DNA from: Limnohabitans sp. Rim8
Lineage (GTDB): Bacteria; Pseudomonadota; Gammaproteobacteria; Burkholderiales; Burkholderiaceae_C
Assembly (NCBI GenBank): GCA_945901045.1
Contig: CAMDKK010000046.1
Location: 1 to 33,136, forward strand
DNA: 33,136 nucleotides
Direction: 5' to 3'
Shown: positions 14,199 to 33,136 of the stretch, piece by piece
Layout: each line of letters starts with the position of its first letter
Position numbering within the stretch: position 1 is the first letter of the stretch
The notes under the pieces: generated by a model
Seen by the model: the letters and a program-made list of their open reading frames with translations, nothing else
What the model was told of the DNA's origin: nothing
Databases searched by the model: none
Made by a program: the position numbers and the translations under genes

Positions 14199-15083
14199 TT
14201 AGGGATTTACAGCATCAGGTGCTTGAACCAGACCCGACTGCCAAACCAGGCGTTCAGGCGCACTGAAGCATAAGAATCTTTTGTGGGTGGCCCGTCCAAT
14301 GGTGCACAGTCCAACCCGCTGCGCAACAGCCAATCCCATTTGGGTGATGCCACTGCGCGACACCGCAATGGGCACGCCCATTTGCGCTGACTTGATGACC
14401 ATTTCGCTGGTCAAGCGCCCGGTGGTGTAGAAGACCTTGTCATGACCACTCACATCGTTCATTCCCATCCAGCCGGCAATGGTGTCCACCGCATTGTGAC
14501 GCCCAACGTCTTCGACAAACATGCGCATTTCTATGCCACAAAAAAGTGCACAGGCATGCACAGAACCTGCTGATTTGTAGGTCGTCTCTTGGATGCGGAT
14601 GGCATTCACCAAGCCATACAACTGGGCTTGGGTGATTTGCGCAGGTGGCAAATGGATGCCATCAATGTCACTCATCAAATCGCCAAACACGCTACCCTGC
14701 CCGCAACCGGTGGTCACCACCCTGGGCGCCTTGGGCGTTTCCATCAAGCCCGCACGGGTCTTGACCGCGGCCACACCCGGCTGACCCAACTCGCCTTCAC
14801 CGATGCTCCAGTCGACGGTGATGGATTCAATCTCTTCGACTGAAGCGATCAAGCGTTGGTTGCGCAAAAAACCCAGCACCAACAATTCGGGGCTGGCGCC
14901 CAAAGTCATCAAGGTCACCAGTTCGCGCTTGTCCAGGTAGACCGTCAAGGCCCGTTCGGCAGGAATCTGGACGGTTTGGGCTTGGCCGAACTCATTGATG
15001 ACCGGCGTGGCTTGGGTCAGTGCGGCGTTGGCTTGGGTTAAGTACGGCTTGGCAGTGGACACGGTATTTTCAATGAAAGGCAT
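14199..15083 (-). CDS. fdhD: Formate dehydrogenase accessory sulfurtransferase
   Basis: FdhD passes sulfur from a cysteine desulfurase to the molybdenum cofactor of formate dehydrogenase, making the active sulfido ligand, and is needed for both enzymes encoded upstream. 294 residues from ATG 15083; upstream in-frame sequence is antisense to the small secreted protein and is excluded. Family landmarks are TVYLDKRELVTLMTLGASPELLVLGFL, VTTGCGQGSVFG (Cys127), SAGSVHACALF, FVEDVGRHNAVDTIAGW and YTTGRLTSEMVIKSAQMG. Where E. coli has a CxxC pair, only the first cysteine is present here (CGQG). It is downstream of the fdh genes but separated from them by a terminator hairpin, so it may have its own promoter or rely on read-through. 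Confidence 0.96.
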   Translation of the reverse strand: MPFIENTVSTAKPYLTQANAALTQATPVINEFGQAQTVQIPAERALTVYLDKRELVTLMTLGASPELLVLGFLRNQRLIASVEEIESITVDWSIGEGELGQPGVAAVKTRAGLMETPKAPRVVTTGCGQGSVFGDLMSDIDGIHLPPAQITQAQLYGLVNAIRIQETTYKSAGSVHACALFCGIEMRMFVEDVGRHNAVDTIAGWMGMNDVSGHDKVFYTTGRLTSEMVIKSAQMGVPIAVSRSGITQMGLAVAQRVGLCTIGRATHKRFLCFSAPERLVWQSGLVQAPDAVNP

Positions 15084-15114
15084 CAGACACAGGGCGTAAG
15101 CGTAACCCAAAGGC

Positions 15115-15145
15115 AAAAAGTCCCTCGCCTTGCGACGGGGGACTT
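15115..15145 (-). terminator. Rho-independent terminator between the fdh operon and fdhD
   Basis: On the - strand a hairpin with AAGTCCC (15145-15139) and GGGACTT (15124-15118) closes a partly paired inner stem and is followed by a T run (A run 15115-15119 on +). It lies 27 bases after the small Ala/Pro-rich gene and before fdhD. Confidence 0.75.
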
Positions 15146-15171
15146 GCTGAGAAGTTGCAAGTTGAAAAAAT

Positions 15172-30648: not shown

Positions 30649-30746
30649 GGCATGGCTTTCATTTGTTTCTTCAGCGTTTGTGCATGCGCTGGCAGTCTAA
30701 CGGCAAACAAGCGGCTTGCGCCGCACCATGCAGTTGACTCAGAACA

Positions 30747-32174
30747 TCAGTTGAAGCGGACGTAATCAAAGTCCACGGGCTGGCGGTTGATGCCCATCAC
30801 AGGCGGCGCGATCCAATTGGCGAACTTGCCGGGCTCAACGACACGACCCATCAGGCTGGCCACATAAGCGCGGTCTTCGTTGTTGGGCAACCATTCGCCC
30901 ACTTGGGCCATCCATTCGGCGTCGGTCACCACGCGGCCATCGGGCGTGATCTTGGCACCGGACAAAGAACCGATGTTGCGGTGGAATGCCTTGTGGGGTG
31001 CAGTCAATTTAAAAGGAATGCCGGCCTTGGCGATCACGCGGTTCCAACGCTCGATACCGCCTTTGGAATCGGTGATGTAGTCGTCGCGCAGCACTTCATT
31101 CAAGGCGTTGAGGATCGGCACTTCTTTCTCGACCAAAGTGCCATTTTCAACCGACAAAATCTTGTAGCTGTTGCCCTTCAAGACATGGTCATCCGAACGC
31201 TTGCCTTCTTCATAACGGCCCTTTAAGCCCGAGCTGTAGAAGGTTGCGGCATTGGACGACTGGTCGGCACCGAACAAATCGATGGTCACCGAAAAGTGGA
31301 AATTGATGTAACGCTGGAGGGTCGGCAGGTCGATCACACCGGCCGCGCGCAACTTGGCCACGTCATCGGTTTTCAGCTGGTTCATGACTTCCACCGTGCG
31401 CTGGATGGTGCGGCTCACGCCGGACTCGCCCACGAACATGTGGTGTGCTTCTTCGGTCAGCATGAACTTGGTGGTGCGGGCCAACGGATCAAAAGCGGAT
31501 TCTGCCAGGGCGCACAACTGGAACTTACCGTCACGGTCAGTGAAGTAAGTGAACATGAAGAACGACAACCAGTCGGGGGTCTTTTCGTTGAAGGCCTGCA
31601 AGATGCGGGGGTTGTCTACACTGCCGCTGTTGCGCTGGAGCAAGGCGTCGGCTTCTTCGCGGCCGTCTTTGCCGAAGTACTTGTGCAGCAGGTACACCAT
31701 GGCCCACAGGTGACGGCCTTCTTCGACGTTGATTTGGAACAGGTTGCGCAGGTCGTACATGCTGGGGGCGGTCAGGCCCAGGTGGCGCTGCTGCTCGACC
31801 GAAGCGGGCTCGGTATCGCCTTGGGTCACGATGATGCGGCGCAGGTTGGCCCGGTGCTCGCCAGGCACGTCTTGCCAAGCTTTTTCACCGATGTTGTCAC
31901 CGAAGTGGATCTTGCGGTCTTGCTCGCCGGGGTTCAAGAACACACCCCAACGGTAGTCGCGCATTTTGACGTGGTCAAACTGGGCCCAGCCTTGTGGGTC
32001 CACGCTCACAGCGGTGCGCAGGTAGACGTCCATGTCGGTGGAGCCTTCGGGGCCCATGTCGTCCCACCAGTTGATGAAGTTGGGCTGCCACTGTTCCAGC
32101 GCGCGTTGCAGCGTGCGGTCTTCCGACAGGTTGACGTTGTTGGGGATTTTTTCGCTGTAGTTGATACCGGACAT
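30747..32174 (-). CDS. boxB: Benzoyl-CoA 2,3-epoxidase oxygenase component
   Basis: 475 residues from ATG 32174 with AGGAGAA about six bases upstream; a frame extension to 32231 lacks support. BoxB is a class I di-iron oxygenase that inserts one O atom into benzoyl-CoA to give 2,3-epoxybenzoyl-CoA in the cytoplasm. Candidate iron ligands follow the published Azoarcus enzyme with a two-residue offset: E122, E152 and H155 in EEGRH, D213 in FTDRD, E242 and H245 in LTEEAHHMF. Substrate-site sequence WWDDMGPEG and DYRWGVFLNPGEQD are typical. It starts 62 bases after boxC stops. Confidence 0.97.
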   Translation of the reverse strand: MSGINYSEKIPNNVNLSEDRTLQRALEQWQPNFINWWDDMGPEGSTDMDVYLRTAVSVDPQGWAQFDHVKMRDYRWGVFLNPGEQDRKIHFGDNIGEKAWQDVPGEHRANLRRIIVTQGDTEPASVEQQRHLGLTAPSMYDLRNLFQINVEEGRHLWAMVYLLHKYFGKDGREEADALLQRNSGSVDNPRILQAFNEKTPDWLSFFMFTYFTDRDGKFQLCALAESAFDPLARTTKFMLTEEAHHMFVGESGVSRTIQRTVEVMNQLKTDDVAKLRAAGVIDLPTLQRYINFHFSVTIDLFGADQSSNAATFYSSGLKGRYEEGKRSDDHVLKGNSYKILSVENGTLVEKEVPILNALNEVLRDDYITDSKGGIERWNRVIAKAGIPFKLTAPHKAFHRNIGSLSGAKITPDGRVVTDAEWMAQVGEWLPNNEDRAYVASLMGRVVEPGKFANWIAPPVMGINRQPVDFDYVRFN

Positions 32175-32236
32175 GCTGTTCTCCTGGTGTTTATAAATCG
32201 GTTTGGGACGAAGCTGAAGCGCTGGCCACAATGTAT

Positions 32237-33136
32237 TCAGACTCGGTTCAAGTCAAATTGGACTTTTTCGCCCTTGCCATAGACCTTCAAAGCGCCTTTT
32301 TCTCCGACGGCGTTGGGTCGCTGGAAGATCCAGTTTTGCCAAGCGGTCAAACGACCAAAGATGCGGGTGGCCATGTTTTCTTTTTGCGCAAAGCGAAGAT
32401 TGGCTTCGAGGCCCGTGAGGGCGTCGGGCGACATGGACGAACGCTCTTCCAAAGCCAAACGGATTTCGTCAGCCCAGTCGATGTCGTCCGGCGCTGCGGT
32501 GACCAGGCCCAGAGCCAAGGCCGCGTTGGCGTCCAAAGGCTTGCCGATGGCGCCCCGTGCAGCCTCCATGGCGGGCTCTTCTTCATAAAAGCGGCGCTGC
32601 AGGCGCGTCTGGTCGTTGACCATGGGGAAGAAACCGAAGTTCATTTCGCTCAACTGGATCTTGGGGGCCTTGGCTTCGTCATCCGGCAGGGCCAGCATGT
32701 AAACGCGGTCGCCGCAAAACGCCAGTTCAGCGAGTGTGCCGACAAAACAAGTCCCTTCTTCAACCAAGGCAAACAGGCTGCGCGAGGTCACGTCCATGCG
32801 GGCCAGCGTGCGGCGCAGGTGGCCGATGGTCTCACGCACGAACCAGTGGTCCTTGTGGGCCAACAGTGCAGCGTCACAGGCCAGCACAGCGGCGGCATCG
32901 CCGGCCGTCTTGATGACCCAAGTGCCGATGTCGAGTTCGTTGGTGCGCATGTGCAAAATGGCGTCGTCCAGTTCGCGCACCATCTGCAGGGGCCACCAGT
33001 TCATGCCTGCGGCTTCGATGCCAGCGATGTCGGCGGGCTGCGCCGTGGCAGGCGCCTTGACGGTGAAGGTGGCGATGCGCTTGGCGCGGTCGATCTCCAC
33101 GGTGACATTGGTGTAGCTCAGGCTTTCAGCGGCGAT
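32237..33136 (-). CDS. boxC: 2,3-epoxybenzoyl-CoA dihydrolase (partial, N-terminus beyond window)
   Basis: The frame is open from the window edge to the TGA at 32237, 299 codons, about the C-terminal half of the roughly 550-residue BoxC. BoxC hydrolyses the epoxide and opens the ring to 3,4-dehydroadipyl-CoA semialdehyde, releasing one formate. It belongs to the crotonase family by descent. Visible stretches include GTWVIKTAGDAAAVLACDAALLA, LFALVEEGTCFVGTLAELAFCGDRVYML, and AWQNWIFQRPNAVG near the C-terminus. A GTG at 33100 is inside the gene and not the start. It is the first of three box genes in the window, in the usual order C-B-A of the downstream part of box operons. Confidence 0.95.
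   Translation of the reverse strand: MAAESLSYTNVTVEIDRAKRIATFTVKAPATAQPADIAGIEAAGMNWWPLQMVRELDDAILHMRTNELDIGTWVIKTAGDAAAVLACDAALLAHKDHWFVRETIGHLRRTLARMDVTSRSLFALVEEGTCFVGTLAELAFCGDRVYMLALPDDEAKAPKIQLSEMNFGFFPMVNDQTRLQRRFYEEEPAMEAARGAIGKPLDANAALALGLVTAAPDDIDWADEIRLALEERSSMSPDALTGLEANLRFAQKENMATRIFGRLTAWQNWIFQRPNAVGEKGALKVYGKGEKVQFDLNRV

Follow-up and report, generated by a model that had tools for sequence, protein, structure and literature searches.

A benzoyl-CoA (box) gene cluster followed by two formate dehydrogenases in Limnohabitans sp. Rim8: a probable extension for formate disposal

The window analysed here is the whole of contig CAMDKK010000046.1 (33,136 bases) from the draft genome of Limnohabitans sp. 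Rim8 (assembly GCA_945901045.1; 4.01 Mb, 94% complete, 126 contigs). Its minus strand carries, in this order, boxC, boxB and boxA of the aerobic benzoyl-CoA (box) pathway, the gene pair of an NAD-type formate dehydrogenase (FDH), genes for DUF3305 and DUF3306 proteins, a polyferredoxin, a TorD-like chaperone and a small target of twin-arginine translocation (Tat), and finally fdhA, fdhB, fdhC and fdhD. This is probably a box operon extended by a section for formate disposal. BoxAB make benzoyl-CoA 2,3-epoxide and BoxC opens the ring, releasing one formate per ring. This formate would be oxidised by two enzymes encoded within the same gene run, namely a cytoplasmic FdwBA-type FDH yielding NADH and a Tat-exported, membrane-anchored FDH (fdhABC) delivering the electrons of formate to the quinone pool. 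The identity, order and spacing of the genes, as well as their recurrence in relatives, are direct observations; recovery of the formate would follow from the known chemistry of BoxC, which may be the main source of substrate for both dehydrogenases. The arrangement is not due to chance, since relatives keep the joint between boxA and the FDH genes.

Gene content and spacing of the run

The features of the run, in reading order, are as follows.

32237..33136, minus strand: boxC, C-terminal part of 2,3-epoxybenzoyl-CoA dihydrolase (TIGR03222 positions 249-548, 478.6 bits)
30747..32174, minus strand: boxB, benzoyl-CoA 2,3-epoxidase oxygenase subunit (TIGR03225, 889 bits, cut-off 499; ATG at 32174)
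29311..30648, minus strand: boxA, benzoyl-CoA 2,3-epoxidase reductase subunit (TIGR03224, 712 bits, cut-off 459)
27577..29301, minus strand: fdwB-like gene, fused 2Fe-2S thioredoxin-like and NADH-binding FMN subunit (Pfam 2Fe-2S_thioredx and Complex1_51K)
24791..27580, minus strand: fdwA-like gene, catalytic alpha subunit of an NAD-linked tungsten-type FDH, 929 aa (TIGR01591, 710 bits, cut-off 666)
24177..24794, minus strand: DUF3305 protein of the membrane FDH cluster (PF11749, 152 bits)
23602..24180, minus strand: DUF3306 protein of the membrane FDH cluster (PF11748, 115.5 bits)
21552..23675, minus strand: polyferredoxin rich in 4Fe-4S motifs, 707 aa (four Fer4 stretches, PF00037)
20912..21583, minus strand: TorD-like chaperone, start uncertain (PF02613, 81 bits; candidate ATGs at 21583 and 21538)
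20809..20911, minus strand: gap of 103 nt between the TorD-like and Tat-target genes, putative internal promoter
20605..20808, minus strand: fdhX, small twin-arginine protein of 67 aa, Tat target of the FDH region (TIGR02811, 39.2 bits, under the cut-off of 48.45)
17610..20570, minus strand: fdhA, catalytic alpha subunit of the membrane-bound FDH (best PDB match 9vap_A, FdhA, 1278 bits)
16984..17592, minus strand: fdhB, iron-sulfur beta subunit, FDH3 type (NF038355, 340 bits, cut-off 240)
15570..16733, minus strand: fdhC, cytochrome b gamma subunit, start uncertain (TIGR01583, 172 bits, cut-off 116)
14199..15293, minus strand: fdhD, sulfurtransferase of FDH maturation, start uncertain (PF02634, FdhD-NarQ, 234 bits, cut-off 27)

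The genes named in an initial annotation of the window, which had described a box cluster running into two formate dehydrogenases, were thus recovered by profile matches in the order and on the strand given there. BoxA and BoxB both exceed curated cut-offs, which assigns the cluster to the aerobic benzoyl-CoA pathway. BoxC stays below its whole-protein cut-off (478.6 versus 712.3 bits) because the contig ends at base 33136, so that the C-terminal 300 of the 548 model positions are matched; its counterpart in genome G227, of the same genus, is held by a frame of 566 aa. Within the box cluster, boxC is separated from boxB by 62 nt and boxB from boxA by 98 nt.

The identity of the NAD-linked enzyme had to be revised. 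The gene initially called fdsB encodes a fused FdsG-FdsB-like subunit and, with its alpha partner, is of the FdwBA type. The best PDB chain for the beta subunit is 7e5z_B, a tungsten FDH beta (681 bits), while the alpha subunit matches 7vw6_A best (1194 bits, as against 532 bits for the FdsA-type 6tg9_A); we take 7vw6 and 7e5z to be MeFDH1 of Methylorubrum. With these it shares the fused beta and an alpha of about 930 aa; unlike them, it has its genes set in a benzoate operon. An FdsGBACD system would have separate fdsG and fdsB genes with fdsC and fdsD alongside. Here the two parts are fused, both subunits match the tungsten enzyme best, and genes for DUF3305 and DUF3306 proteins come after fdwA; an Fds-type identity was therefore rejected. 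Judged by sequence, the enzyme belongs to the tungsten-type FdwBA family and not to Fds, whereas tungsten and molybdenum cannot be told apart as the active-site metal in this way. A passage of PMC2842291 gives the name FdwAB to the two-subunit tungsten FDH of Cupriavidus necator.

The second enzyme is of the FDH3 type, having a beta subunit above its own cut-off, a cytochrome b gamma subunit and an alpha subunit with a twin-arginine motif (DRRSFLRRSG). FdhA scores 472 bits against the general FDH-alpha model TIGR01591, under the cut-off of 666, and FdhD scores 117 bits on TIGR00129, under the cut-off of 141. In several relatives, FDH3-type clusters located away from box genes have the polyferredoxin, TorD-like, fdhA and fdhB genes in identical order. 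The cluster of the window differs from those in that a 4-nt overlap between fdwA and its DUF3305 gene makes it a continuation of the box gene run.

The spacing of the genes bears on how they may be transcribed. Between the end of the boxA stop, at 29311, and the fdwB ATG, at 29301, there are 9 bases, in agreement with the earlier statement of less than ten; a promoter in non-coding DNA ahead of fdwB was rejected on the strength of this joint. Overlaps of 4 nt join fdwB to fdwA (whose likely start is the ATG at 27580, in an ATGA overlap), fdwA to the DUF3305 gene and the latter to the DUF3306 gene. The polyferredoxin gene overlaps that for DUF3306, and the TorD-like gene either overlaps the polyferredoxin gene or begins 13 nt past it, depending on the start chosen. 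Given these joints, a single transcript through fdwA to torD is likely. The 103-nt gap then precedes the Tat-target gene, which is separated from fdhA by 34 nt, and fdhXABC may be partly expressed from a promoter of their own within that gap. Accordingly, the initial description of an uninterrupted gene run is borne out from boxA as far as the TorD-like gene and fails at the gap. The proposed co-expression is well supported for boxCBA with the NAD-linked FDH by spacing and by recurrence in relatives, while for the membrane FDH the gap permits separate control.

The transcript would start from a BoxR-controlled promoter ahead of boxC, beyond the end of the contig, which carries no genes for BoxR, BoxD or benzoate-CoA ligase. 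Such a layout is present in G227, where a BoxR-like gene (helix-turn-helix and shikimate-kinase domains) lies ahead of boxC, and where genes for an aldehyde dehydrogenase and an AMP-binding ligase, with Pfam domains that fit BoxD and benzoate-CoA ligase, diverge from the BoxR-boxC side. A 240-bp stretch spanning the boxR-boxD gap of G227 contains six TGCA words, whereas the window has 1.6 per stretch of that length; TGCA repeats are reported as BoxR/BzdR sites in a passage of PMC6449761.

Recurrence of the joint among relatives

The initial annotation had proposed a search of gene neighbourhoods for box genes next to FDH genes. We surveyed 121 boxA loci (numbered L; genomes of the wider sample are numbered G) for homologues of the window's own genes. 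The loci, for which the best 80 matches of one search were used, are biased towards relatives of the window, and some genomes, judged by equal lengths of their contigs, were entered twice (e.g. L036/L095, L021/L103 and L053/L105). Among the 103 loci with at least 5 kb downstream, 18 (duplicates not removed) have a gene of the FDH module no more than 5 kb past boxA and on its strand, and 85 have none of the genes sought.

By tblastn distance, fdwB lies 1-19 nt past boxA in L011-L014, L016, L108 (G227) and L164 (G619), and at wider spacing in L123 (G286; 172 nt), L015 (232 nt), L092 (G037; 344 nt) and L056 (1573 nt). The DUF3305 gene follows boxA at 77-127 nt in L018, L029, L038, L059 and L090. 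The full pattern of fdwBA plus membrane FDH module is found in several Limnohabitans and in G286; the membrane module alone comes after boxA in L018 and in the Hydrogenophaga-labelled L029, L038 and L059; G619 has fdwBA and then fdhD, without fdhABC; and the box loci of some relatives have neither FDH type. BoxB of the window is 94-96% identical to that of the Limnohabitans-labelled loci.

Some of these loci show peculiarities of their own. Locus L012 (CALQKH020000005.1), labelled Akkermansia muciniphila, has a box-fdw arrangement with a BoxB 96% identical to that of the window and an FdwA that groups with Limnohabitans; the contig is probably mis-binned or mislabelled. In Limnohabitans sp. 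Bal53, an open frame of short repeated units lies between fdwB and fdwA (L014:14923-15486), where the operon may have acquired a repeat array. Four loci of the Limnohabitans type carry an additional gene, some 500 aa long, between fdwA and the DUF3305 gene (L011:17565-19085, L013:17798-19306, L015:18008-19531 and L016:17891-19381); the window, L012 and G227 have too little space for it. In L089 (G009), L099 (G102) and L091 (G264), boxA sits within a single cluster between two distinct boxB genes, which show 60-61% and 68% identity to that of the window. A weak molybdopterin-enzyme-like frame in G264 (L091:1663-3237; 26% to FdwA), on the boxA strand about 7 kb past boxA, was left uncounted.

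Co-location was also measured in 93 boxB genomes, 57 from an order sample of 300 and 36 from a phylum sample of 397, G180 being excluded for a weak BoxB match under the cut-off. In 10 of the 93, boxB has an FDH alpha gene at a distance of 20 kb or less, where 1.9 would be expected (P 2e-5), or in 9 if the genome of the window is excluded (P 1e-4); ten is a minimum count, because boxB is close to a contig end in several cases (e.g. G664 C30 and G204 C26). Counted by genus, 5 of 50 are linked (P 0.003, or 0.017 with the window's genus excluded). The chance model behind these values scores nitrate-reductase-like matches as FDH, which is conservative, and takes genomes as independent, which is not. 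Six of the ten linked genomes have an arrangement compatible with one operon: in five (that of the window, G227, G619, G286 and G037) boxA is followed by fdwB, and in the sixth, G048, by the DUF3305 gene of the membrane module at 77 nt.

FDH positions were taken for all 93 genomes, and the sorting into Fdw and Fds covers 74 of them. Alpha-subunit matches in those 74 fall into 40 at 54-100% identity and 33 at 34-37%. Of the 40 Fdw genomes, 8 have Fdw no more than 20 kb from boxB, as against none of 33 Fds places (Fisher 0.007, uncorrected for kinship). The FdwA query of the locus survey, which is also the window's row in the FdwA tree, was a frame of 991 aa, exceeding the likely protein by 62 aa. 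This tree has 46 rows, representing all Fdw genomes except G292 (39 of 40) and 7 further loci. Box linkage requires 3 changes on it (mean after shuffling, 12.8), all forced by well-supported branches. A first linked group unites the window, other Limnohabitans, L056 and G286, with G654 as its one unlinked member. The second consists of four rows of family code f38, and the operon case there comes from G037 (344 nt by tblastn), because in the other three, though labelled linked, Fdw is merely near and does not adjoin the box genes. Gain and loss of linkage cannot be told apart on this tree. The FdhA tree (17 rows) gave no clear clustering by linkage (4 changes, shuffled mean 5.2, with 81 of 500 shuffles as low), and for this reason recurrence alone is claimed for the membrane FDH.

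These patterns invite a bolder proposal, which we regard as rather unlikely as it stands: box operons would specifically recruit tungsten-type FdwBA, with Comamonadaceae adding a respiratory FDH, so that growth of these freshwater bacteria on benzoate would come with a built-in, tungstate- or molybdate-dependent formate respiration whose cytoplasmic and periplasmic arms operate under different conditions.

Alternative explanations

Several observations weigh against a box operon extended for formate disposal. No FDH-module gene of those sought follows boxA at the 85 loci mentioned above, and the genomes sampled are kin and not independent. In G124, G191 and G221, three of the ten linked genomes, Fdw lies about 13-17 kb off on the opposite strand, and G191, inspected gene by gene, has other genes between box and Fdw. 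The membrane FDH of G509 stands on the boxC side, at a distance of 12 kb, and all ten boxB genomes of genus code g230 are without an FDH near boxB. Furthermore, a search of the window's own genome for molybdopterin Fe4S4 proteins, a class that leaves single-subunit NAD FDHs out of its scope, gave four matches, of which only the two box-linked enzymes are FDH-like; of the others, one looks like a nitrate reductase of the assimilatory type, with a BFD-like domain, and one like a DMSO reductase. As the sole FDH-like enzymes of this class in the genome, the two could serve any source of formate. This would suit a view in which genes of general formate metabolism have come to stand beside box by chance or inheritance, with the dehydrogenases serving all sources (C1 units, oxalate and others) from promoters of their own. 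The fact that 32 of the 40 Fdw genomes carry that type of FDH away from box points the same way, as does the variation in the modules retained, from the membrane FDH only in L018 to fdwBA-fdhD without fdhABC in G619. However, with joints of 9 nt and 4 nt, neither fdwB nor the DUF3305 gene has non-coding space ahead of it that could house a promoter, the box-linked FdwA rows form two separate groups, and co-location exceeds a simple chance model; we consider this view improbable. An assembly chimera fusing a box contig with an FDH contig might be suspected in a draft of 126 contigs, but the identical joint is present in other genomes, including named isolates (L011, L014, L015 and L016; also L108 and L164). 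Since relatives keep the joint, a chimera was rejected, its probability being negligible.

The operon might, alternatively, comprise two units, one of box, fdwBA and the accessory genes, the other of fdhXABC and fdhD, starting from the 103-nt gap and answering other signals such as formate or oxygen. We give this possibility slightly less than an even chance; as regards fdwBA, it is compatible with an operon extended for formate disposal. In its favour, the gap (20809-20911) holds an inverted repeat, GTTAC-N6-GTAAC, and G619 has box and fdw genes without fdhABC. Against it, 11 other loci, some of which lack fdhA next to torD, show no such repeat over the 700 bp past torD; these represent nine informative genomes, as L108/L160 and L123/L161 are two genomes entered twice, and a twelfth locus, L012, offered only 5 bp there. 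A crude scan for sigma-70-like sites between 14000 and 33136 gave none on the minus strand and 2 on the plus strand, fewer than in shuffled sequences (5.6), and so carries little weight. The accessory genes ahead of the gap are, moreover, tightly coupled to fdwA.

Published parallels, consequences and neighbouring genes

The linkage is not new in kind: the idea of a box cluster carrying an FDH for BoxC formate is already in print. Suvorova and Gelfand (2019; PMC6449761) name FdhBA as a possible member of the BoxR regulon in Azoarcus sp. EbN1, possibly oxidising the formate from BoxC, a proposal for which they cite Gescher 2006; in Azoarcus sp. BH72, they describe FDH genes near box, yet too distant for co-transcription. 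EbN1 resembles the window in having a box cluster with an FDH (COG1894, COG3383) near enough for proposed co-transcription, and in the purpose proposed, the oxidation of BoxC formate to reducing equivalents. It differs in that the FDH and a thioesterase gene adjoin a lactonase gene, whereas in the window the FDH comes directly after boxA and a second, membrane-bound FDH with accessory genes is added. For SAR324, too, PMC4782131 suggests that the breakdown of aromatics supplies an FDH with formate. Hydrogenophaga and Limnohabitans are grouped as box-pathway Comamonadaceae in PMC10803450, where the word formate is absent from the text available, and the relevant part of a Pandoraea kraft-lignin proteome lists BoxA and FDH subunits with no connection drawn between them. 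Word searches of literature that lacked most subscription journals found no paper on the box-FDH arrangement of Limnohabitans. New here are the second membrane-bound FDH, the position after boxA and the pattern of Fdw, not Fds.

The gene order lends support, from more than one lineage, to the published idea that organisms with the box pathway oxidise the formate from BoxC where it arises. If the explanation is right, aerobic benzoate degradation via box would yield more energy and electrons than the box enzymes alone suggest, and the yield on benzoate would be tied to the supply of molybdenum or tungsten. These energetic consequences are what we infer from the gene content. Conversion of NADH to NADPH would need a transhydrogenase, and a split pntA-like gene pair in the same genome (340.6 and 102.4 bits, under the cut-off of 444.4) could carry out this step. 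Culturable Limnohabitans are indicated as test strains.

Elsewhere in the window, positions 135-2948 encode a SNF2/helicase-like protein of 937 aa, in a region whose G+C content (0.48-0.51) is lower than that of the box-FDH stretch (0.52-0.61). A luciferase-like monooxygenase gene lies close to one for a TctC-type solute-binding protein at 6945-9530, and an IclR-type regulator is encoded on the opposite strand at 9594-10448.

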